A stretch of 45,705 nt of DNA. Origin: a virus. How positions within the stretch are numbered: the first letter of the stretch is position 1; each line of letters opens with the position of its first letter. This document shows positions 657 through 45,705 of the stretch, piece by piece. The stretch lies in IMG/VR virus record IMGVR_UViG_3300044679_000050, positions 1 through 45,705 of that record. One strand, written 5' to 3'. A program made the position numbers and the translations under genes. The notes under the pieces were generated by a model. That model did not search any database and was not told the origin of the DNA. It saw nothing but the letters and a program-made list of their open reading frames with translations.

Positions 657-835
657 GTTTGCTTCGCCTCTGTTTCACGTGATGGCATATGGTCCGCGTC
701 GTAGTAAAATTGCGTCTCTACGGCGCACCGAACCTTGCACCGATCGCATGTATAGAGTTCATACGCGTGGCCACCTTGACTCTGCCTGACTATCTGTAGC
801 CCCATGACCTTTCTGCATTCCGGGCAATAGATCAC
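653..835 (-). CDS. Zinc-ribbon protein, 60 aa
   Basis: Two CxxC pairs are visible: C4-P-E-C7 and C30-D-R-C33, with C37 nearby, a typical zinc ribbon. The start is GTG at 835, chosen because it overlaps the stop of the HTH gene before it (GTGA) and leaves the first CxxC intact. Such ribbons often bind nucleic acid or a host protein; here the partner is unknown. Confidence 0.7.
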   Translation of the reverse strand: MIYCPECRKVMGLQIVRQSQGGHAYELYTCDRCKVRCAVETQFYYDADHMPSRETEAKQT

Positions 836-1020
836 TCTGATACCTCTGGATTGGCCTGTGACTCTAGCCAGCGCAGCGCCAGTTCCACCGTCTTAGGCAC
901 CACCGAATCGCCTGACACGTACTTGCGCATAGTCCTCTCGTTGATCTCTAGTGCCTTCGCTGCGCCGCGCTGTGAGAGTCCAGCGCGGTCTAGCAGGCGT
1001 TGCAGCTGCATGGCGGTCAT
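832..1020 (-). CDS. Small HTH transcription regulator, 62 aa
   Basis: Residues 4-45 (LQRLLDRAGLSQRGAAKALE, then a second helix beginning INERTMRKYV) fit a helix-turn-helix of the XRE/Cro type: a short helix, LSQRGAAKAL, a turn, and a recognition helix. At 62 residues it is about the length of a minimal Cro-like protein. It overlaps the gene before it (TAATG) and is the second gene after a promoter that carries a 32-bp dyad at 1243-1274, so autoregulation there is a reasonable inference. DNA binding is likely; the target is not shown. Confidence 0.75.
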   Translation of the reverse strand: MTAMQLQRLLDRAGLSQRGAAKALEINERTMRKYVSGDSVVPKTVELALRWLESQANPEVSE

Positions 1021-4667: not shown

Positions 4668-4994
4668 TCACGACTTGCGCCGTGACGCCTCCAATGTTCG
4701 ATACACATCGATCAAGATCTCGGCTCTCGAGCGCTTCGCCTTCAGCGTCTCGAACTCGAGCATCGAGGCGCACAAAGATTCATCGGCCGCGACTACGTCA
4801 GCATGGCCTTCTGCTTTGGCTTTGCGCACTTCCACCCCTCCCTCCGTTTCGACAAACACTCGTGCTCTCGTGCGTTTCGATAAGATTTCTGCACGCAATA
4901 AATCAGCTTTAGCCTTGGCGTATTGCTCATCCGATTCACTCAGAAAAAGCATCGCATTTTCCATCCGTTCCGTTGTGATCGGGTCTCGATTCAT
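4668..4994 (-). CDS. Helical protein linked to recombinase, 108 aa
   Basis: Almost entirely alpha-helical: an acidic N-terminal YAKAKADLLRAEILSKRTRA coil, a short linker with AEGHADVVAADE, and a C-terminal AEILIDVYRTLEASRR. The ending, a helix with x-x-W/Y-R-S/T-L-E-A-S-x-R, is typical of a protein commonly encoded next to phage exonuclease or ERF genes. It starts with an ATGA overlap on the ERF gene, supporting a shared role in recombination, but its activity is unknown. Confidence 0.65.
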   Translation of the reverse strand: MNRDPITTERMENAMLFLSESDEQYAKAKADLLRAEILSKRTRARVFVETEGGVEVRKAKAEGHADVVAADESLCASMLEFETLKAKRSRAEILIDVYRTLEASRRKS

Positions 4995-5851
4995 CGACGC
5001 GGATCGCTCTCGATTTCCATGGCTGTTAACTCTTCCGCCATCGCCTTGTACTTCTTCCAGGCAGAGCGCGACTTAGGCGGCAACAGATGGCTCGCGGCTA
5101 TATAGAGATCGTTATTTCCCCGAATCATGTCGTGCAAATCCATGACGCGCATCGCACGTTTCTGATCAGTATCGACCGGATTGGTGCCAATGACTCCTAA
5201 GGCGGAGAGCATTTTATCAGCTGTATTGCGCGCCTCCTGTGGGTCAACGTTATTCAATGCATCCCCGCGGATCTCGTCTGGCTTCTTCTCGTCCTGTCCG
5301 TCATTGTCTTCATTGGTTAGCACCACATCGAAGACCATGCACTTGAGGTAGCGTCGCCCATAGCTGATCGTCGATCCGCTAGCCTGAATTGCGGTCTTGT
5401 TTGGATTGCCCTTGAGCCCCACGTTATCCAGTGCTAGGTCGAAATGCTTGACCGTGGTATGGCCCGCGGAATGCATGACATCGCACACGATCCGAATATG
5501 ATCAGCCTTTGGGCAATCTGCCGTGTCAAATGACAACGAGAAGCCCTCCGCCGTGTAGATTGGCGTGATGGCATCAGAGATGGTCTCAAGGCGCGCATAT
5601 GGCGAATTGGTCTGACTGTTCATAGCGTCTCTGAAGACCGGCTTAATCTTTGCCTGTACAACCGCCATAGCCGAGTTATAGGCGGCTTTCCTCTGTTCAG
5701 CCTGCATATCCTTGTGGATGTTCAAAAGCCGCTCCAGCTTATCTATATCGACGCTCGGATCGCGCGCGGCACGCTCGATCATGGCAAGCATTGGATCTTC
5801 GGAGACCCGCTCACGTACCTGCGGAACGATCAATCTGGTTGGCTCATTCAT
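4991..5851 (-). CDS. erf: ERF-family single-strand annealing recombinase
   Basis: ERF proteins anneal complementary single strands during phage recombination and genome circularisation. The 286-residue protein shows the family features: an N-terminal MLAMIERAARDPSVDIDKLE region, the core YNSAMAVVQAKI and SPYARLETISDAI, the signature GSTISYGRRYL at 159-169, and DNDGQD at 182-187, followed by a helical C-terminus. ATG at 5851 is used, not the ATG 20 codons upstream, because it overlaps the preceding stop (ATGA). The helical protein downstream is coupled in the same way. A recombinase would help circularise terminally redundant DNA and would favour cassette exchange in the early operon. Confidence 0.88.
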   Translation of the reverse strand: MNEPTRLIVPQVRERVSEDPMLAMIERAARDPSVDIDKLERLLNIHKDMQAEQRKAAYNSAMAVVQAKIKPVFRDAMNSQTNSPYARLETISDAITPIYTAEGFSLSFDTADCPKADHIRIVCDVMHSAGHTTVKHFDLALDNVGLKGNPNKTAIQASGSTISYGRRYLKCMVFDVVLTNEDNDGQDEKKPDEIRGDALNNVDPQEARNTADKMLSALGVIGTNPVDTDQKRAMRVMDLHDMIRGNNDLYIAASHLLPPKSRSAWKKYKAMAEELTAMEIESDPRR

Positions 5852-6021
5852 TCTGCTTGTCTCCGGAGGAGCGCACAGGTGTCCTCCTTCATATCGGTTA
5901 GTAATTTCCACTTACCCAATTCGCGCCTCAAGTCTTTGTTCTCAGCCTCGAGCGCGGCAATGCGCTTTTTCTGCGCCTCGATGGTGATACTCGCGCGCAG
6001 CAGCAGTTCGAGTTCAGACAT
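5848..6021 (-). CDS. Short coiled-coil protein, 57 aa
   Basis: ELELLLRASITIEAQKKRIA followed by ALEAENKDLRRELGKWKLL gives continuous heptads over about residues 4-42, so a dimeric coiled coil is likely. Start ATG at 6021 overlaps the previous stop region. It directly precedes the ERF gene; small coiled-coil proteins in this place are common and uncharacterised. Confidence 0.65.
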   Translation of the reverse strand: MSELELLLRASITIEAQKKRIAALEAENKDLRRELGKWKLLTDMKEDTCALLRRQAE

Positions 6022-6181
6022 CGCGCACGTCCTTGCCCACGCTGAACGCACCGGGCTTGCACTGATTGATCTTCTGGTACGGGATCACCGGATTGCGCAG
6101 CGTGACTCCCACCCAAAGCGCGATGGCGATCACGGCGACGAAGAGGACGCCAGCGAAGACCAGCCCTGCGCCCCAGCCCAT
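6014..6181 (-). CDS. Small membrane protein, 55 aa
   Basis: The frame from ATG 6181 (TGATG overlap with the gene before) to TGA 6016-6014 encodes one strongly hydrophobic helix, residues 5-27 (AGLVFAGVLFVAVIAIALWV), and a polar C-terminal half with one Cys. It is predicted to sit in the inner membrane. Two consecutive membrane genes (this and 6181-6345) suggest a membrane function early in infection, such as exclusion of other phages, but nothing specific is visible. Confidence 0.65.
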   Translation of the reverse strand: MGWGAGLVFAGVLFVAVIAIALWVGVTLRNPVIPYQKINQCKPGAFSVGKDVRDV

Positions 6182-6345
6182 CACCGATCCTCCTTGCGCG
6201 CATCCCAGATCTCGTCATATTTCTGCTGCTGCGATGTCGGCTCTTTCGCGAACATCATCGTCCAGAAGAAAAACGCCATGGCGATGAAGGGCGGCACGAA
6301 AATGATCGCGGCGAGGATGATCAAGATCCAGGCGAAGACGCTCAT
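6181..6345 (-). CDS. Small membrane protein, 54 aa
   Basis: Starts MSVFAWILIILAAIIFVPPF and continues IAMAFFFWTMMF: one long or two closely packed transmembrane helices (about 3-36), followed by a charged cytoplasmic-type tail (QQQKYDEIWDARKEDR). ATG at 6345 overlaps the previous TGA. Role unknown. Confidence 0.65.
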   Translation of the reverse strand: MSVFAWILIILAAIIFVPPFIAMAFFFWTMMFAKEPTSQQQKYDEIWDARKEDR

Positions 6346-6503
6346 GGCAGCTTCTCCGCGATACGCTTCCACTCAGCCCAGAGCTGCGCATTCAGCTCGA
6401 CCGGCTTGTGCTCGATCGGCTTCAGCACCGGGAGCGGTGCGAGCTCTTCCGGCCGATGGCTGGTTAAGTCGGTGTTCTGGTCGTACCAGTCGTAGGGGTG
6501 CAT
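6342..6503 (-). CDS. Hypothetical protein, 53 aa
   Basis: A soluble, proline-rich 53-residue protein (MHPYDWYDQNTDL..., LAPLPVLKPIEHKP) with a C-terminal amphipathic helix QLWAEWKRIAEKL. The start at 6503 lies two bases after the previous stop. No known family. Confidence 0.55.
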   Translation of the reverse strand: MHPYDWYDQNTDLTSHRPEELAPLPVLKPIEHKPVELNAQLWAEWKRIAEKLP

Positions 6504-6505
6504 GG

Positions 6506-6682
6506 CTATGCCGCCTTCTTGGCTGCACGTCGAGCGGCTTTCTTGGCCTGCTTCGTGTTCCACGCGATCTCTTTGCGTTTCGTCGCCCCGATCGACAGCG
6601 GCAGGCCATTGTTGATGTGCAGGTAGCGCACTTTGGCGCGTGCCTCAGCGCGGCGGGATCGGTTGGTGGTCTTGACGTACAT
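6506..6682 (-). CDS. Basic first protein of the leftward operon, 58 aa
   Basis: First gene behind the leftward promoter, with a near-perfect ribosome site AGGAGG (6692-6687) four bases before ATG 6682. The protein is strongly basic: RSRRAEARAKVRY at the start and a Lys/Arg/Ala helix KQAKKAARRAAKKAA at the end. Such tails bind nucleic acid non-specifically. Its position suggests high, immediate-early expression. Function unknown. Confidence 0.65.
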   Translation of the reverse strand: MYVKTTNRSRRAEARAKVRYLHINNGLPLSIGATKRKEIAWNTKQAKKAARRAAKKAA

Positions 6683-6707
6683 ATCGCCTCCTGATCTGTT
6701 GGAGGCG

Positions 6708-6736
6708 AGTATTACCCAGGGGTAAGGTACTGTCAA
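6708..6736 (-). promoter_or_regulatory. Leftward early promoter
   Basis: Minus strand: -35 TTGACA (6736-6731, consensus) and -10 AATACT (6713-6708) with a 17-bp spacer. Transcription would start near 6701 and give an 18-20-base leader before ATG 6682. The spacer and -10 box are covered by the first operator; a second operator abuts the -35 box. Confidence 0.75.
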
Positions 6737-6830
6737 TACCTTGGGGTAAATTATTTTTCTATGCCGATTCGCCCTCATTACCAGTAGGTAAATGACCCGT
6801 GGGTATTGACGCGACCTTACCCGTGGGTAA
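6712..6830. promoter_or_regulatory. Five-operator control region
   Basis: Five 14-bp dyads related to TTACCC-N2-GGGTAA lie between the divergent genes: 6712-6725 (TTACCCAGGGGTAA), 6736-6749 (ATACCTTGGGGTAA), 6778-6791 (TTACCAGTAGGTAA), 6793-6806 (TGACCCGTGGGTAT) and 6817-6830 (TTACCCGTGGGTAA). The outer pairs at each end have centres exactly 24 bp apart and the same position relative to their promoter. One regulator, probably the adjacent Cro-like protein, could therefore bind both promoters in the same way. Confidence 0.85.
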
Positions 6831-6834
6831 TACT
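6806..6834 (+). promoter_or_regulatory. Rightward promoter for the Cro-like gene
   Basis: -35 TTGACG (6806-6811) and -10 AATACT (6829-6834) with a 17-bp spacer, a mirror image of the leftward promoter. The expected start point, about 7 bases downstream, falls at 6841-6842, which is the A of the ATG. The message would be leaderless or nearly so, as known for lambda cI from PRM. No Shine-Dalgarno of quality precedes the ATG. Confidence 0.65.
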
Positions 6835-6841
6835 CCAGAGC

Positions 6842-7090
6842 ATGGAAGAGTTGCGTCAATATTTGAACTCGCTGCGGCCTCCGGATCAGGAATCATTTGC
6901 ATCTCGCTGTGACACGTCCCTCGGCTACCTCCGCAAGGCCATTTCGAAGGGCCAGGAGCTGGGCACCGAACTTGTTATCTCGATCGAGCGCGAGAGCGGG
7001 GGAGTCGTCCGATGCGAGCATCTACGGCCCGACATCGATTGGAAGTACCTCAGCAAACGCAATCCGAGCATGCATGAGGTCGCTCAGTGA
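6842..7090 (+). CDS. Cro/YdaS-like HTH regulator, 82 aa
   Basis: The protein starts MEELRQYLNSLRPPDQESFA and carries RCDTSLGYLRKAIS, GTELVISIERESGGVV and a final CEHLRPDIDWKYL. This order (x-L-x-x-P-x-x-Q-x-x-FA, a recognition helix, then SGG-x-V-x-x-x-x-LRPDIDW) is that of the Cro-like YdaS family of DNA-binding regulators. The closing L-R-P-D-x-x-W is diagnostic. ATG 6842 is used; an upstream in-frame ATG at 6806 would read through the promoter. It is most likely the binder of the five operators next to it. A separate CI-type repressor is not visible. Confidence 0.82.
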   Translation: MEELRQYLNSLRPPDQESFASRCDTSLGYLRKAISKGQELGTELVISIERESGGVVRCEHLRPDIDWKYLSKRNPSMHEVAQ

Positions 7091-7119
7091 TTGGTTGCAA
7101 TGCGACAGAATGTAGTGAG

Positions 7120-7143
7120 AAACCCTTAAAAAAAAGGGTTTTC
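7120..7143 (+). terminator. Terminator after the Cro-like gene
   Basis: AAACCCTT (7120-7127), a six-A loop and AAGGGTTT (7134-7141) form an eight-bp stem followed by a short T run. It lies 30 bases after the Cro-like stop codon. The A-rich loop and weak T tract make efficiency uncertain; in the other direction the A and T flanks could also serve the minus-strand gene that follows. Confidence 0.6.
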
Positions 7144-7155
7144 AGTCAACATAAT

Positions 7156-7287
7156 CTAGCCATTCGGCCGAAACAGCTTGTGAATTTCCTCTCTCGTCAT
7201 GGCGATCTCGCCGACGATCGAGAACGCACAGAGCAGCAAAGTTACGCAAAAGATGATCGTGCAGATGACTGCGGTCTTGTTGTTCAT
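7156..7287 (-). CDS. Small membrane protein, 43 aa
   Basis: The minus-strand frame ATG 7287 to TAG 7158-7156 encodes a short hydrophobic helix (about 6-28: AVICTIIFCVTLLLCAFSIV) preceded by a Lys and followed by a polar tail MTREEIHKLFRPNG. It lies alone between the Cro-like gene and the HTH gene, opposite to both. Leftward transcription would end at the A/T-rich hairpin at 7120-7143. The ribosome site is weak, so the call is moderate. It could be a lysogenic membrane protein. Confidence 0.5.
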   Translation of the reverse strand: MNNKTAVICTIIFCVTLLLCAFSIVGEIAMTREEIHKLFRPNG

Positions 7288-7324
7288 TGCTTTGCACCAT
7301 CCCTAGATCTGCCGAGTCTCGCAT

Positions 7325-7558
7325 ATGAGTGATGTCGAGAGCCAGGAACGCAGGATCTTGGCGTATCTCAAACAGGGCCGTGTCCTTACTCCTCTCTCGG
7401 CTCTAAACCTATTTGGCTGCCTACGACTGAGCGCACGCATTCACAGCTTGCGTCGGAAGCACCGTATTGATTCAGCAATTGTGAAGTTACCGAGCGGCAA
7501 ACGAGTTGCTCTCTATTCGACGTGGACGGGAAAGAAAAAGCCCCAGGTTTTGGCCTAG
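7325..7558 (+). CDS. Winged-helix-like small regulator, 77 aa
   Basis: ERRILAYLKQGRVLTPLSAL, NLFGCLRLSARIHSLRRK and VKLPSGKRVALY fit the small phage HTH family in which R-I-L-x-x-L-x-x-G is followed by T-x-x-x-A-L-x-x-x-x-x-x-R-L-S-x-R-I-x-x-L-R-x-x. The wing ends in a short beta hairpin. Its stop codon TAG lies inside the terminator stem, so transcription ends right at the gene's end. It could be a late-gene activator or an early regulator; its promoter is not clear. Confidence 0.7.
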   Translation: MSDVESQERRILAYLKQGRVLTPLSALNLFGCLRLSARIHSLRRKHRIDSAIVKLPSGKRVALYSTWTGKKKPQVLA

Positions 7559-7565
7559 GGCTTTT
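7536..7565 (+). terminator. Rho-independent terminator
   Basis: AAAAGCCC (7536-7543) pairs with GGGCTTTT (7558-7565), with an inner AGG/CCT pairing, one mismatch and a six-base loop. The T run is in the stem arm, the usual form of a phage bidirectional terminator. It includes the TAG of the small HTH gene. Confidence 0.8.
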
Positions 7566-7813
7566 GGGTGCAATAGGTCACATATCGCACGCTGAGCTGA
7601 TTAACGAGCAGAAGTGTAGCGAATTCTAGACGTGTTTGCACTCAGTTCGTGGGGCGGGTCACACCGTAGTCCGAATGCGAACTGAAAGAAGTGACGGATC
7701 GGTCAGGCACCTCAGCGGGGGCATGTCTGGCTTCCCCTTACCTTCCAGGACCCCTGGGGGGTAAGGGGGGCTTTGTTACGTTACCTAGCGAAAGCATGTT
7801 TAGGAGAAGGGAG
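7566..7813. other. Noncoding stretch with a long hairpin (7734-7768)
   Basis: No plausible gene is seen here. The main feature is a perfect two-part stem: CCCCTTACC (7734-7742) with GGTAAGGGG (7760-7768) and, inside a TT/GG internal loop, CCAGG (7745-7749) with CCTGG (7753-7757) around an ACC loop. A CTTTG follows, so it may terminate or attenuate transcription entering the late operon. A second inverted repeat, CAGTTCG (7643-7649) and CGAACTG (7678-7684), lies upstream. The late promoter should be in this stretch, but I could not identify one. Confidence 0.6.
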
Positions 7814-8092
7814 ATGAGGCAAGAAAGAAAGACGAGATATGAGCAAAACGTTTCCGAGCTTCGCCGTCTATATGGTCCTTTGGGTCTGGAGATTTGGGAG
7901 TTTTCTGGGGTGCATCTACGGATTGTAGGCAAGAACTTGGTGGACTTTTGGCCTACTACCGGGAAGGCCTGGATGGTTGGATCGCGTAGGAAAGGACGGG
8001 TCATGACCGCTTCGGAAGTCTGTGATTTAGCCCTGGGAGACACAGAGATTCTTCCCGATGGCGCGAGTGAGCATATGAGGGCGATGCAATGA
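7814..8092 (+). CDS. First late-operon gene, hypothetical, 92 aa
   Basis: ATG 7814 has GGAG seven bases upstream; the longer frame is less likely. The protein has a basic N-terminus (MRQERKTRYEQNVSEL) and a core LRIVGKNLVDFWPTTGKAW, where V-D-F-x-P-T-T-G-K-W is a recurrent phage motif of unknown function. It overlaps the next gene as ATGA. Confidence 0.6.
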   Translation: MRQERKTRYEQNVSELRRLYGPLGLEIWEFSGVHLRIVGKNLVDFWPTTGKAWMVGSRRKGRVMTASEVCDLALGDTEILPDGASEHMRAMQ

Positions 8093-8418
8093 CAACTCTT
8101 GAAGCAGTCCAGGAGAAGGTTCGAGCCCGCTGCAAAGTCACTCCAAAGCTTCACTGGAGGCGCTTGAGCGACTATTCCATGGTGAGCGAGTGCGGCCAGT
8201 TCTATGTTGGCAAGGCATTCGTCATGGGCGAGCCGAGATACGAAGTCTGGTTCAAAGCTCAAGGTGGTAGCGCGGTGCAATTGCGCATGAATCTGCCCTC
8301 TGGGGATGAAGCCAAGGCCTGGGCGAGTTCAATAGCAAACGCTTATCGCAAGGGCACAATTAGCCTGAAAGTCCCGCCATCTAAGCAGGAAATCGATCGA
8401 TTGAAGGCGCTTCAGTGA
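8089..8418 (+). CDS. Hypothetical protein, 109 aa
   Basis: A mixed alpha/beta protein: LHWRRLSDYSMVSECGQFYV, EPRYEVWFKAQGG, and a C-terminal helix EAKAWASSIANAYRKG. The N-terminal beta portion with W-R-R-L-S-D-Y-S-x-x-S looks like a small phage fold that I cannot name. It ends with the GTGA that starts the nuclease gene, so the two are coupled. Confidence 0.55.
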   Translation: MTTLEAVQEKVRARCKVTPKLHWRRLSDYSMVSECGQFYVGKAFVMGEPRYEVWFKAQGGSAVQLRMNLPSGDEAKAWASSIANAYRKGTISLKVPPSKQEIDRLKALQ

Positions 8419-8729
8419 GTGCCAGAACTCGTGCTGCCTTGGGCGAACGCGATGCCAATCACGTCGAACTGGTTCAGCGCTACGAACAGCATTTCTGCAA
8501 GGTCTATGACACAAGCACCGTAGGCGGGGGGTTCCCCGATACCGTCGTACGCATTCAAACCCGCGATGGGCACGTCCTGCAATTGGTCGAGATCAAGACC
8601 GAGGACGGCTCGCTCAATCGTGCGCAAGAGCTATTCCACCTCGAGTGGGGTCCACGCTCCTGCGTCACAGTACGCACCGTCCAAGACGTCGATGCGCATA
8701 TCGCTCAGGTCAAAGCACGTTCCTGGTAA
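8415..8729 (+). CDS. VRR-NUC-like PD-(D/E)XK nuclease, 104 aa
   Basis: Residues 38-61 carry GGGFPDTVVRI followed by LQLVEIKTEDG and then LNRAQELFH; this is the PD...E-x-K arrangement of the VRR-NUC and related small phage nucleases, with D42, E59 and K61 as metal/catalytic residues and Q71 in the following helix. Full-length VRR-NUC domains are about 90-110 residues, so this is a stand-alone domain. Such enzymes can act on branched DNA during packaging or recombination. Start is GTG 8415 (GTGA overlap). Its place two genes before the terminase fits a packaging role. Confidence 0.78.
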   Translation: MSARTRAALGERDANHVELVQRYEQHFCKVYDTSTVGGGFPDTVVRIQTRDGHVLQLVEIKTEDGSLNRAQELFHLEWGPRSCVTVRTVQDVDAHIAQVKARSW

Positions 8730-12698: not shown

Positions 12699-13381
12699 TT
12701 CGTGGCATGCATGTGGTGTGCTGCGGCATTGACGAGATTTGGCCTGCGCTCGTTGCAGCGGGTACTAGTTCTGCCGGTGGTGCAGCGGCGGGTGGAACAG
12801 CGGCAGGAATAGGGGCCGGAGCTGCGGCGGGTACAGCAGCTGCCACAGCATTACCCGCAATCACTGTGACAGGAACGGCAGCAGGTCTGGGCGCTGCTGG
12901 TACCGCTGCTGCCGCCGGTGGTGCTCTAGGCGGTGCTGCTGCGGGTGCTGCGGCCGGTGGGTTCTTCAACGGCTCAAGCTTCAATAGTGTCAATGATTCA
13001 TATACCCAACCGGGTGCCAATCCAGCCACCTCAGCGAGCGCTGGGCCGGGTGGCACGCCCGCTGGCACTACGGCTCCGAGTTCCGGGCCTGGACTATTCT
13101 CGAACGCCGTAAAGACGATCGGTCCCGCATTGGCGGGCTCAGTCGTATCTACAGGCTTGAACGCTGCTATGGGCGGCCGCCGTGGCATTACGGTCCCTCC
13201 GCCTCCTGGTGCTGCTGCGATTGATCCTGAAGGGGCACAAGCCGCTGCCATGATCCGTGCACGTCAGGCAGTCGCGGGAGGACTCTCGAGCACCAACATC
13301 GCCGGAGCGAACAGCGCTCAGGGCTACGCCGCCGCAACGTCAGGTCCGACATCGGGCGCTAAGACGGCGCTCGGCCAATGA
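12692..13381 (+). CDS. Ala/Gly-rich virion-type protein, 229 aa
   Basis: Residues 20-95 are mostly Ala and Gly with hydrophobic interruptions (AAGTAAATALPAITVTGTAA), giving a long pliable segment. The end RQAVAGGLSSTNIAGANSAQ matches the C-terminal RxxxxGxxST-x-x-x-G element of many phage particle proteins located near the terminase or internal proteins. It may be an ejected or head-internal protein. It ends overlapping the spike gene. Confidence 0.55.
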   Translation: MLIRGMHVVCCGIDEIWPALVAAGTSSAGGAAAGGTAAGIGAGAAAGTAAATALPAITVTGTAAGLGAAGTAAAAGGALGGAAAGAAAGGFFNGSSFNSVNDSYTQPGANPATSASAGPGGTPAGTTAPSSGPGLFSNAVKTIGPALAGSVVSTGLNAAMGGRRGITVPPPPGAAAIDPEGAQAAAMIRARQAVAGGLSSTNIAGANSAQGYAAATSGPTSGAKTALGQ

Positions 13382-16300
13382 CCTCGCTCATCATAAAGCC
13401 GATGACGTTCGGCCCGCGCATTACGACGCCATCGCCGCTGTTGTCGGGCGAGGTAGGCTTTGCCTATGCGACGGCGCTGAATGGCACGGGCGGCTCATCG
13501 CCCTATACCTATGTGGTGGTTACAGGCGCTCTGCCGGCCGGCCTTTCGATGAATTCGTTCGGCATCATTGCCGGTACGCCGACAACGGTCGGTTCGCCCA
13601 GCTTTGGCATTCAGATCACGGATGCGAAGGGCGCGAAGGGGAATGTGACGACCTTTGGGCTCACGGTCGTTGCGATGGTGGCGATTACCACCTCAAGCCT
13701 GCCGAATGCGCAGCAGGGCGTGGCGTACTCGACCACGTTGGCGGCTTCGGGCGGCGTCACACCGTACAGCTGGTCGCTGGTCGCGGGATCGATTGATCCG
13801 GGCCTATCACTCAATCCCAGCTCTGGGAACATCTCAGGTACACCGACTACGCCTGCGACCTATACGCCCACGTTCCAGGTCACCGATGCCCTGGGCTACG
13901 AGGTGCAGAAGCAATTGAACCTGACAGTGGGGGGTATGGCTCAGGCAGCCACGCCCACGTTCAGTCCAGCCGCTGGCACGTATACCAGCGCGCAGACCGT
14001 CACGATCTCCTGTTCGACGCCATCGCCGACCATCTATTACACGACGAACGGCACGACGCCCACGACTTCGAGCCCGGTGTATTCATCGCCCATCTCGGTG
14101 AGCTCGACTCAGACTGTCCAGGCCATTGCGACCGCTCCAGGTTATACCCAGAGCAACGTGGGAAGTGCCGCTTACACGATATCGACCAGCTCGCAAGCGC
14201 TCACCAAGTTCCGCTCCGGCATGTACATGATGTCCGGTAACCCGAACGACCAAGCGTCGATGAATGCGCTCGCGACGAGCTGGGCAGGAAATGGCGGCAA
14301 GATCCAGGGTTATTCAGCTTGGTACAAGTGGAGCAACATCGAGACGGCGCTCGGTACCTACAACTTCACCTCGGTCTTCAACGACTACACGTATCTGCAG
14401 AGTGTCGCTCCGGGTGCATCGTTCATCCCACAATTTAACTGGTATGCGAATCAGACGCTCGCATCTTCAGCGCTGCCCACGTTCAACCCGAACGGTGACG
14501 GCGTACCGAGCTACATCTGCGACAACCCTGCCACCTACGGTGCAGGACCGCCCACCTCGAGTTCGAGTTATGGCGGCTGGTGTGCAGATACCTACATCTC
14601 GCCCAACTATAACTATGTGAACGCGGCTTTCTGGCGTACTGCGGTGCAGGCGCGGATCGAGGCACTATTCCAGGCCTTCGGCTCGACCATTGTGCCGGAT
14701 GGGCAAGGCTTCACAGTCGATCAGCATCCGCTTTTTGAGATGGTAGGCACATCTACACCTACTGATTTTAACATGCAGACGGCCCCCAATATTCCGGCGG
14801 ACTACACGTATGAATTAGCGAATCAGGCGTGGCTCAATATGCTGCCCTCGCTCCGCGCGACGATGCCGCATACGGAAGTGTTCTTGATGCCAGGGTTTGG
14901 CGCGAATAACTTCTCAGGCGGTAATGATCCCACGCAGCAGAACGTGCTCATCAAGGCCATGCTTGCGAACGGCATTGCCCAGTCCTGCACCGATGTCTAT
15001 ACACCAACTCAGTTGACCTATGCCCAGTACTACCTGATCGGTAGCAACTACAACGGCACAGCGGGCTTTCAGACGCCGCTCTTGGGACAGATCGACTCAG
15101 TGCCGAGCGTGCAGGGCGATGACTATCCGCTCAACAGCATCACCGAGATCTTGAACTGCTCGTTCGTGACGCTACAAGCAAGTCGGGTGCTGCTCTATAG
15201 CCAGTCCTCCGCCAACTTCAACATCCCCGGCTTCTGGAACACGATCATCGGGACGATCAATTCCTACTCGATCCCGGCGATATGCGGTGAGTTGCCGGTG
15301 ATGATCATGGCGGCTCCTACGGGCCTGACACTGACGAGCTTCTCGGGAACTACTGCAAGTCTTTCCTGGACGGCACAGACGACCAATACGGGCACCGGCT
15401 TGACGTACACGGTGTTTCGCAATGGCGTGAATCTCAACCTGACGCTTCCGCTTGCTTCGCCTTCGTATACTGATACGGCGTCTGCGGTGGGTGATGTCTA
15501 CACGGTCGCGGTGACGAATCAGAATGGTACAGGGCCGCAGAGTTCGAGCGTTTCGGCAACGACTGCGGTCAATCCCATATGGGTGAACTTGGCCGCCGGC
15601 GGCGTCTCGCTCTTAAGCTATGAGAATTTCGCGATATTCAAGAATCGGGTACGCGAAGGGCGGATGACGAGCGGAAGCTTTTCGGCAACGACCGGCTGGC
15701 CCATGACGGCCTTCACGTTTCTCCTATGGGAAGGCAACACGCTACCGTCGTGGGCAACTGCGGCGACATCTAGCACCCCGTTCAAGTGCGGCTATATCGG
15801 GACAGGAACCCCATCCTCATACGCGGGTTGCACGGTCGCCAACATCGTCACGGGCAATGGGACGACGACATATACAACCTTCGATCTATACAACTGCACG
15901 GCGACTTTTGGATTTTCCTCAACCGCTGCGGCGACCAATCTCTTTGCCTATTTGCCTGAGTACCCGGCCGAGACGATCGATAATCCCACGACCGCTGCCG
16001 CTTTCAGAACGGAAGCGATCAACTTCTACAAACAGTTCGCTGGTATTCGCTTCATGTGGTGGAGCTGCGTCACGCAGAACACGGGCGAGAACACCTTGGC
16101 GACGCGCAACACGTCATCGAATACGCAGTTCTACAAAAACTGGGCAGGCAACGCGAGTCAGGGTGTAGTTGCCGAAGGATATCCGGTTGAATGGGCTGCT
16201 GCCTTCTGTGCAGCCTGCAACATCGGCATCTACTACAACCTCCCCGTCTACGAGGACGGCACTCAAAATGCGGCGGGTACGTATACCAATGCCGTACTCG

Positions 16301-17424
16301 GCGTATTGAATTCCGTAATTGGACCCACGGGCAAGCCGATACGTCTGGAGATCGGTAACGAACTCGTCTGGAACGGCAACTATCCGATTGGGACGACCCT
16401 GCAAAACTTAGGGGTAACGAACGGTTTCCCCAACACAGCGGATGGAGCATTTCAGTATCTCGGCTACAAGCTCCATGCGTTGGCGAATGCGTGTCGCACC
16501 GTCTTTGGGAGCGCTTTCAACAGTCAAGTTAAATTGATCTTTGCAAGCCAGACCGGGGGGAACGGCTGGGGCAACTTCTTCCCAGCAGCCCTCTCGTACA
16601 TGCAGACCAATTACGGCACGCCAGGGAACGATGTAAAAATCCTCTCGACCGCGCCTTACATGAATCTTGCCAACAACGCTGGCGATACCAGCGTGGCATT
16701 GGTGTTGAGCGATCTGAGCACCGTCGGCGCGGTGCAGCCCTACAACTCGAATGCAGAGCACGTCTCGATCCTGGCACAGCACTATGGAATGGAGCTTGCG
16801 GCCTACGAGGCGGGATGGCAGACCAATTCCGAGGCATCGGGTAACGCTTACATCTCATCGGCCATCATGAATTCCGGCATGGTCGGGACGATGGAAACCT
16901 ATTGGAATGCCCTGTTGAATGCGGGCTACATAGAAATTGCAGCCTTTGAATCGGGTGCAAGTTCGGGCGAAGGGACCTATCCGCCCACCGACGAATTCAC
17001 CACAAGCGATGCCAACATCCAGACCGCGCCGCGCGTCACGGCATTACTTAATTTCACCAATGGCAGCTACACCCAGACGCGCAACGCCATAGGTCCGGGC
17101 GGAGTGATCACCGGCGGCAATTTCGCCGACTCCATCAATGGCGCATCGGCGACGCTTACGAATTTCACCTCGCCGGTGGGCAACTATTCAGCGGCCTGTC
17201 AGTTCTATTGGACCGGATCGGCAAGCACTCGCTCGCTTGTCTTGAATGTAACCGGCAGCGGTACGACCAATATTGAGATGGGTGGCACCGTGCTCTTCAC
17301 GTCAGTCTCTCTGGTGAGTGGTAACAATACCTTCAGTGTGCCCGTCCAAGCCGGGTGGAATTATCTGCTGATCGGCAACGGGAATTATCAGAACGTGACC
17401 ATCAACTCGGCGGCGTTTAACTGA
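13378..17424 (+). CDS. Large spike with two glycosidase-like barrels, 1348 aa
   Basis: Domains seen in order: two immunoglobulin-like (He_PIG) repeats at about 15-98 and 99-185, each with GTP-T and L-P-x-G-L-S motifs; a chitobiase C-terminal-like (Fn3-associated) domain at 187-268 (TPTIYYTTNGTTPT-type core); a barrel-like region at about 275-640 with E454 in FEMVG and E638 in ICGELPV; an Fn3 domain at 644-731; a second barrel at about 735-1170 with N994-E995 in EIGNELVW and E1144 in AAYEAGW; and a jelly-roll carbohydrate-binding-like end (about 1250-1348). In clan A glycosidases the acid-base Glu follows Asn and the nucleophile Glu sits on a late strand, which fits the second barrel well and the first one less well. 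It probably degrades a host polysaccharide (depolymerase). Start ATG overlaps the previous gene. Confidence 0.75.
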   Translation: MTSLIIKPMTFGPRITTPSPLLSGEVGFAYATALNGTGGSSPYTYVVVTGALPAGLSMNSFGIIAGTPTTVGSPSFGIQITDAKGAKGNVTTFGLTVVAMVAITTSSLPNAQQGVAYSTTLAASGGVTPYSWSLVAGSIDPGLSLNPSSGNISGTPTTPATYTPTFQVTDALGYEVQKQLNLTVGGMAQAATPTFSPAAGTYTSAQTVTISCSTPSPTIYYTTNGTTPTTSSPVYSSPISVSSTQTVQAIATAPGYTQSNVGSAAYTISTSSQALTKFRSGMYMMSGNPNDQASMNALATSWAGNGGKIQGYSAWYKWSNIETALGTYNFTSVFNDYTYLQSVAPGASFIPQFNWYANQTLASSALPTFNPNGDGVPSYICDNPATYGAGPPTSSSSYGGWCADTYISPNYNYVNAAFWRTAVQARIEALFQAFGSTIVPDGQGFTVDQHPLFEMVGTSTPTDFNMQTAPNIPADYTYELANQAWLNMLPSLRATMPHTEVFLMPGFGANNFSGGNDPTQQNVLIKAMLANGIAQSCTDVYTPTQLTYAQYYLIGSNYNGTAGFQTPLLGQIDSVPSVQGDDYPLNSITEILNCSFVTLQASRVLLYSQSSANFNIPGFWNTIIGTINSYSIPAICGELPVMIMAAPTGLTLTSFSGTTASLSWTAQTTNTGTGLTYTVFRNGVNLNLTLPLASPSYTDTASAVGDVYTVAVTNQNGTGPQSSSVSATTAVNPIWVNLAAGGVSLLSYENFAIFKNRVREGRMTSGSFSATTGWPMTAFTFLLWEGNTLPSWATAATSSTPFKCGYIGTGTPSSYAGCTVANIVTGNGTTTYTTFDLYNCTATFGFSSTAAATNLFAYLPEYPAETIDNPTTAAAFRTEAINFYKQFAGIRFMWWSCVTQNTGENTLATRNTSSNTQFYKNWAGNASQGVVAEGYPVEWAAAFCAACNIGIYYNLPVYEDGTQNAAGTYTNAVLGVLNSVIGPTGKPIRLEIGNELVWNGNYPIGTTLQNLGVTNGFPNTADGAFQYLGYKLHALANACRTVFGSAFNSQVKLIFASQTGGNGWGNFFPAALSYMQTNYGTPGNDVKILSTAPYMNLANNAGDTSVALVLSDLSTVGAVQPYNSNAEHVSILAQHYGMELAAYEAGWQTNSEASGNAYISSAIMNSGMVGTMETYWNALLNAGYIEIAAFESGASSGEGTYPPTDEFTTSDANIQTAPRVTALLNFTNGSYTQTRNAIGPGGVITGGNFADSINGASATLTNFTSPVGNYSAACQFYWTGSASTRSLVLNVTGSGTTNIEMGGTVLFTSVSLVSGNNTFSVPVQAGWNYLLIGNGNYQNVTINSAAFN

Positions 17425-45460: not shown

Positions 45461-45610
45461 TCACTCGACGGCGTGCCAAACACTCAAGTGCACGTCAAGC
45501 TCGTTTTCGATCAAGGCCACAATCTTTTCCACGACGTCCTCGACCGGTCCACCAGCATCGCGCCACTCGAGCAGTGCTCGGGTAAGCTCGTTTTGTTCTG
45601 GAAATATCAT
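45461..45610 (-). CDS. Small acidic helical protein, 49 aa
   Basis: ATG 45610 overlaps the stop of the duplicated 63-residue gene (ATGA) and ends at TGA 45463-45461. The protein (MIFPEQNELTRALLEWRDAG..., VVEKIVALIENELDVH) is acidic and helical. It replaces the 93-residue gene found after the intact copy of the same cassette, showing that the two copies are followed by different genes. Function unknown. Confidence 0.6.
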   Translation of the reverse strand: MIFPEQNELTRALLEWRDAGGPVEDVVEKIVALIENELDVHLSVWHAVE

Positions 45611-45705
45611 CGCTTCTCTCCCCGGTTCGCCTTGAACTCTAGCGAAATGTCCTCGATCGTTTCCAACAGGCTCCGGATCACACGCGCGGCTACGATCAAT
45701 TGCTC
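45607..45705. repeat. Right-edge part of the 323-bp duplicated segment
   Basis: These 99 bases equal 2477-2575 exactly. Together with 1-112 they account for the two ends of a second copy whose middle 112 bp (matching 2576-2687) is missing between the window ends. Confidence 0.9.
45607..45705 (-). CDS. Hypothetical helical protein, copy 2 (5' end cut by window edge)
   Basis: The last 32 codons and stop of the 63-residue gene, identical to residues 32-63 of the copy at 2477-2668. The start lies beyond the right edge. If the molecule is circular, this gene continues from the 39-residue membrane gene at 1-97. Confidence 0.7.
   Translation of the reverse strand, partial: EQLIVAARVIRSLLETIEDISLEFKANRGEKR

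Follow-up and report, generated by a model that had tools for sequence, protein, structure and literature searches.

The control region of a metagenomic virus contig (IMG/VR record IMGVR_UViG_3300044679_000050; all 45,705 nucleotides were analyzed, hereafter referred to as the window) carries five operator dyads and two divergent promoters. These very likely represent a lambdoid OL/PL and OR/PR pair whose OL2-OR3 segment, with cI and the PRM transcript, has been lost, so that Cro alone would shut off both early operons in an obligately lytic cycle. Upon infection, transcription would start divergently from PL and PR, and the YdaS-type Cro, translated from a probably leaderless mRNA, would bind the paired operators, turning down both promoters and leaving a pulse of early expression. 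Such a phage would probably be obligately lytic and unable to lysogenize. An earlier, sequence-only reading had described the region as a mirror-symmetric switch, a view that is replaced here by a lambda-type pair of modules missing its intervening segment.

Operators and promoters of the array

Sequence reading and scanning placed five dyads at 6712-6830, between the leftward operon and cro. All five had been proposed to have the form TTACCC-N2-GGGTAA; the dyads are there, but only two are perfect, namely OL1 (6712-6725, TTACCCAGGGGTAA) and OR1 (6817-6830, TTACCCGTGGGTAA), whereas OL2 (6736-6749, ATACCTTGGGGTAA), OR3 (6778-6791, TTACCAGTAGGTAA) and OR2 (6793-6806, TGACCCGTGGGTAT) have two mismatches each; no site is assigned to a strand. 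Exact matches to ACCn4GGT form a cluster of five within 125 bp, far above the chance level, as no cluster exceeded two among 200 composition-matched Markov sequences. A consensus scan confirmed two equivalent, divergent, mirror-image promoters, which are sigma-70-like with equal spacing and an identical -10: a predicted PL-type promoter (6708-6736, minus strand; TTGACA-17-AATACT, 10/12) that would drive the leftward operon, and a predicted PR-type promoter (6806-6834, plus strand; TTGACG-17-AATACT, 9/12) that would drive cro. OL1 overlaps the -10 and spacer of PL, the place that it also holds in relatives, and OL2, 24 bp from OL1, abuts the PL -35; on the other side, OR1 overlaps the spacer and -10 of PR, and OR2 abuts its -35.

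The coordinates on both sides agree with the geometry given in the sequence-only reading, with OL1 and OR1 each 8 bp from the centre of their own -10 and OL2 and OR2 24 bp further in. The two 47-nt arms (6707-6753 and 6789-6835) are 81% complementary. Mirror symmetry, as claimed before, holds for the promoters and the paired sites; since OR3 lies off-centre (42 bp from OL2 and 15 bp from OR2), the array is organized as 2+3 and is not mirror-symmetric throughout. The gap between the PL and PR modules measures 48 bp and contains no ORF. Within it, a 28-bp junction (6750-6777, no strand) marks the place where relatives have the immunity segment (cI and its neighbours), as judged by comparison with 21 CI-bearing clusters and CI N-termini, and no cI remnant was found in this junction. 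The first leftward ORF (6506-6682, minus strand; 58 aa) has an AGGAGG site upstream, and the PL transcript would have a short leader. We also observed that the minus-strand frame at 6506-6859 is open across the entire operator array into this gene, with an ATG beside OR3, perhaps by chance.

A YdaS-family Cro directly behind PR

The cro gene (6842-7090, plus strand) lies directly behind PR, as is characteristic of a YdaS/Cro-type lambdoid control region, and encodes an 82-aa YdaS-family protein (Pfam YdaS_toxin, 33.3 bits, over the cut-off; phrog_35, transcriptional repressor), which upholds the single Cro-like regulator proposed earlier. A ten-sequence profile matched Cro 3bd1 as well as two solved proteins that were deposited under the name Cro antirepressor (8co2 and 8c7k). 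The gene is without a ribosome-binding site, and the predicted PR start (~6841) adjoins the ATG at 6842, which makes the suggested leaderless mRNA plausible and indeed probable. Leaderless cro genes are common in the family: in about half of the clusters, the ATG follows OR1 by 18-26 nt and lacks a ribosome-binding site, and most of the remaining clusters have a distance of 42-49 nt and, for the most part, such a site. The name "toxin" is disputed, YdaS having been argued to be Cro (PMC5917428), and in CP-933P the protein gives a footprint on OR and acts as a repressor of both PR and PL, with an effect of about 100-fold at PL (PMC8630535). These results suggest that many proteins labelled "YdaS toxin" are Cro proteins.

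Layout of the control region in relatives

In the first relatives (L003 and L004), three sites upstream of cro, spaced as in the window, are followed by a divergent CI-type gene and, beyond it, by two sites and a leftward promoter. Scanning all loci then fetched with the module pattern ACCn4GGTnTTGA-n8-12-ACCn4GGT yielded divergent module pairs in 113 sources (a count that includes the window and its duplicates), whereas 1.84 Mb of reversed sequence contained five single modules. The array thus recurs in related phages, where the sequence-only reading had proposed looking for it, with operators at matching spacings. After clustering of cro at 85% identity, OL and OR were separated by 501-4509 bp in 21 of the 26 clusters, and the separating segment included leftward ORFs of 134-353 aa; this gap typically contains a CI-type repressor gene next to OR, the longest gap ORF of a few clusters not being the CI gene itself. 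Operators in relatives are spaced 24-26 bp apart in the OL pair, and 15 and 24-26 bp apart in OR. The window has the same arrangement, with three OR sites over PR and two OL sites over a divergent PL at these distances. The 15-bp spacing of OR3 from OR2 is kept in nearly all of the 26 clusters, and a mirrored third OL site (OL3) was found in none of the clusters examined, making 2+3, that is five operators, the family rule. As read from these sequences, the family order is OL1, OL2, immunity genes, OR3, OR2, OR1, and the window has exactly those five sites with 28 bp replacing the immunity genes. A second locus set, recruited by the Cro profile, agreed with the first in its OL/OR layout.

CI-type N-termini were located in 46 loci, where they start 78-135 bp upstream of cro (mostly 82-97 bp) and form one family (MDKYExRR... 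or MxIQDIRRARL...). The middle site of the window, previously regarded as an extra, is therefore OR3, which adjoins the cI start in CI-bearing relatives and has no obvious remaining task here. We rejected its interpretation as a merged OL3/OR3, given that no relative has a mirrored OL3 and that the site is off-centre. The epsilon15-like contig L135, whose head-tail adaptor is a distant relative (28.9%), combines a nearly identical OR with a leaderless cro and the N-terminus of a CI. Megablast of window positions 6000-8500 against phages gave no match, and the terminase as bait recovered one relative (42%).

A large group of enterobacterial loci (e.g., L031 and L100) has a 500-bp OL-OR gap with a short, 139-aa CI-type gene. 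At this length, the gene has no room for an S24 domain, which makes induction by self-cleavage unlikely; its presence also led us to reject these loci as CI-less, a status that gap size would have suggested. The phages CharmingMan, mEp043, IPK, Rb1 and 587AP2 were likewise rejected, having a CI-type gene beside cro, or an S24 match or ORF consistent with one.

Absence of CI and integrase genes

The lack of a CI-type gene noted earlier was confirmed, as neither the profile of the relatives' CI proteins nor Pfam S24 gave a match in the window. The CI profile took in a few long non-CI gap ORFs; its positive controls (L008, L004 and L003) were nonetheless strong (E 1e-81 to 1e-27). Integrase and resolvase domains (PF00589 and PF00239) also had no match in the record, and the only HTH_3 signal was weak and fell in a small XRE-type HTH protein of the leftward operon (HTH_31; 832-1020, minus strand; 62 aa). 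Both a CI gene divergent from cro and integration functions, the marks of a lysis-lysogeny switch, are thus missing from the window. The two ends of the record (1-112 and 45607-45705) lie in a second copy of a 323-bp repeat, with a whole copy at 2477-2799 and 112 bp unread between the ends. The genome is therefore probably a nearly complete circle of ~45.8 kb, which makes the absence of CI and integrase meaningful. With neither gene, lysogenization is probably impossible and the most likely lifestyle is obligately lytic; since the operators are intact, a lysogen of matching CI specificity should still repress the phage. This arrangement predicts phages that are unable to lysogenize yet sensitive to lysogens of matching immunity.

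Recurrence of the CI-less fusion

Fused CI-less arrays occur in Burkholderia phage BgVeeders33 (OK665841; L014) and in three uncultivated contigs (L297, L239 and L229/L231). In BgVeeders33, the OL and OR modules are 220 bp apart, cro is of YdaS type and the integrase is kept; no S24 or HTH_3 match was obtained and no CI was found. The most compact fusion is that of L229 (3915-4004; also L231): its PL and PR point outward from a middle site that they share, and each promoter has one additional operator over it. In L239 (2440-2640), a possible 16-residue CI-like stub (VDKADKRKALLEHRL) lies 86 bp from cro, the cI start position in relatives, and is a hint only, with a profile score short of significance (E 1.4). 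The search for the fused-array pattern among viral contigs found L297; L298 was rejected as a chance pattern match within coding sequence, and 57 matches in bacterial genome contigs included no true double module with cro.

We further mapped the CI-less label on a cro tree of 70 rows, which took three changes by parsimony and three to four in bootstraps, never one, on a poorly resolved topology whose starred branches alone are compatible with a single origin. This result suggests at least three origins of the CI-less fusion, by parsimony on a weakly resolved tree. An integrase was present in 29 of the 33 CI-bearing contigs versus one of the five CI-less contigs (Fisher's test, P = 0.004), two of the latter being short fragments, so that integrase or CI could sit elsewhere. 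BgVeeders33 retains an integrase, which means that CI loss need not imply an old lytic lineage.

Two side observations concern these loci. L229 and L231 carry a leftward Rha-family gene. Between the fused OL and OR of BgVeeders33 (about 5880-5910), we noticed by eye a LexA-box-like sequence (TACTGTACATGCATACAGT) over promoter-like sequence, and host LexA might act there as a stand-in for CI.

Alternative explanations

Loss of the segment is most likely the direction of change. No sister phage turned up in which this backbone is combined with an intact cI flanked by these particular operators; since no cI stub is left in the window, the choice between loss and gain turns on distribution. An ancestral fused arrangement, into which CI was inserted in the relatives, would suit a 28-bp junction free of cI remnants, but CI-less members are rare and interspersed with CI-bearing ones, about three changes are needed, OR3 is retained although it adjoins the cI start in relatives, and the possible stub of L239, not significant by profile score, lies at the expected 86 bp from cro; we consider such an origin very unlikely. 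It is less probable still that the assembler skipped the immunity segment. The window is a metagenomic contig, but its repeated units share only 11-nt exact words, too short for easy mis-joining, and a like fusion is present in the other contigs and in BgVeeders33, which was isolated as a phage and has a circular record.

The phage could also still be temperate if a replacement repressor had taken over, with host LexA and the XRE-type HTH protein (832-1020) as examples. The HTH_31 assignment of the latter and the LexA-box-like sequence seen by eye in BgVeeders33 speak for this reading. It is quite unlikely, because L208, which has a CI-like gene of its own, also encodes a relative of the HTH_31 protein, because we noticed nothing resembling a LexA box in the window junction, and because integrase is absent. 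Cro on its own keeps PL and PR repressed in lambda-dv plasmids, and a comparable quiescent or plasmid-like carrier state would make CI unnecessary: the window Cro appears to be autoregulated and to face both promoters with intact strong sites, and the record looks circular. Among the window ORFs searched, however, no replication initiator, partition gene or integrase was recognized, and such Cro-only maintenance is unlikely. Beside loss of the cI segment in an obligately lytic phage, we tentatively consider that the CI-less fusion may be recurrent and selectively maintained, with a Cro-only symmetric early timer (or a Cro-held carrier state) in several unrelated lytic phages and operators selected for Cro alone. 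If true, cI loss with OL-OR fusion would be a maintained state used by several unrelated lytic phages.

Comparison with known systems

In lambda, PL/OL and PR/OR are mirror-oriented on either side of cI. The YdaS/Cro relatives share this orientation, so the contrast with an asymmetric lambda drawn in the first reading does not stand. The unusual feature of the window is the missing segment between the two modules. Like lambda, the window has divergent PL and PR, operators over each, OR1 and OR2 about 24 bp apart and a Cro predicted to act at both; unlike in lambda, where six sites are separated by cI with PRM, there are five sites of unrelated sequence with nothing between.

The immunity region of CP-933P from E. 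coli O157:H7, in which PaaR2 is CI, YdaS is Cro and YdaT is CII (PMC8630535), resembles the window in its YdaS-family Cro, its operator array over PR and its PL, whose -35/-10 are identical to those of PR. One Cro was shown to repress both promoters there (PMC8630535), and the same is predicted for the window Cro by analogy. Unlike the window, CP-933P has a CI-type gene between OL and OR, hence PRM, as well as three OL sites, and its leaderless gene is cI (paaR2), whereas that of the window is probably cro. BgVeeders33 is similar in its cro type, its closely placed modules and the lack of a detected CI, but differs in virion type (Mu-like tail genes), has a weak OR3, keeps an integrase and carries a LexA-box-like sequence between the modules.

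Control of PL and PR by Cro/YdaS is already known, as is repressor deletion that makes a phage lytic: mycobacteriophage D29 is obligately lytic through deletion of its repressor gene (PMC6550527), with another repressor and operator system and no OL-OR fusion. No description of fused OL-OR arrays after cI loss, or of their recurrence, was found in the open-access literature searched. A fused array, as the scar of a lost immunity segment, would make the temperate-to-lytic change readable from sequence, and such natural Cro-only circuits may offer a CI-free setting for studying what Cro does in lytic growth.

Genome neighbourhood and module shuffling

Downstream of cro, a hairpin at 7110-7150 (plus strand; -12.1 kcal/mol, z -3.4) is a possible terminator, and a second one lies at 7725-7785 (z -3.7). 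The next ORF encodes a winged-helix HTH_39 protein (7325-7558, plus strand; Pfam 2e-10), beyond which small ORFs, a large terminase subunit, an epsilon15/phiV10-type major head protein, a head-tail adaptor, an internal virion protein and a spanin follow rightward. The leftward operon includes an ERF-type single-strand annealing protein (4991-5911, minus strand; Pfam ERF 6.9e-15), by which L208 is the nearest backbone relative (79%), with its own CI-like gene and a different immunity type. L208 and L209, which have the same ERF, were rejected as array relatives because they are without these operators. L135 shares the control region and L208 only the backbone, which indicates that control region and backbone have been reshuffled relative to each other, a pattern also seen in other lambdoid phages. 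L208 illustrates such module exchange, with another Cro/CI pair (5181-5799) beside its 79% identical ERF protein. Between the terminase and head-tail genes of the window, a 1348-aa protein (13378-17424) with Ig-like and chitobiase C-terminal domains is likely an adhesin or depolymerase.
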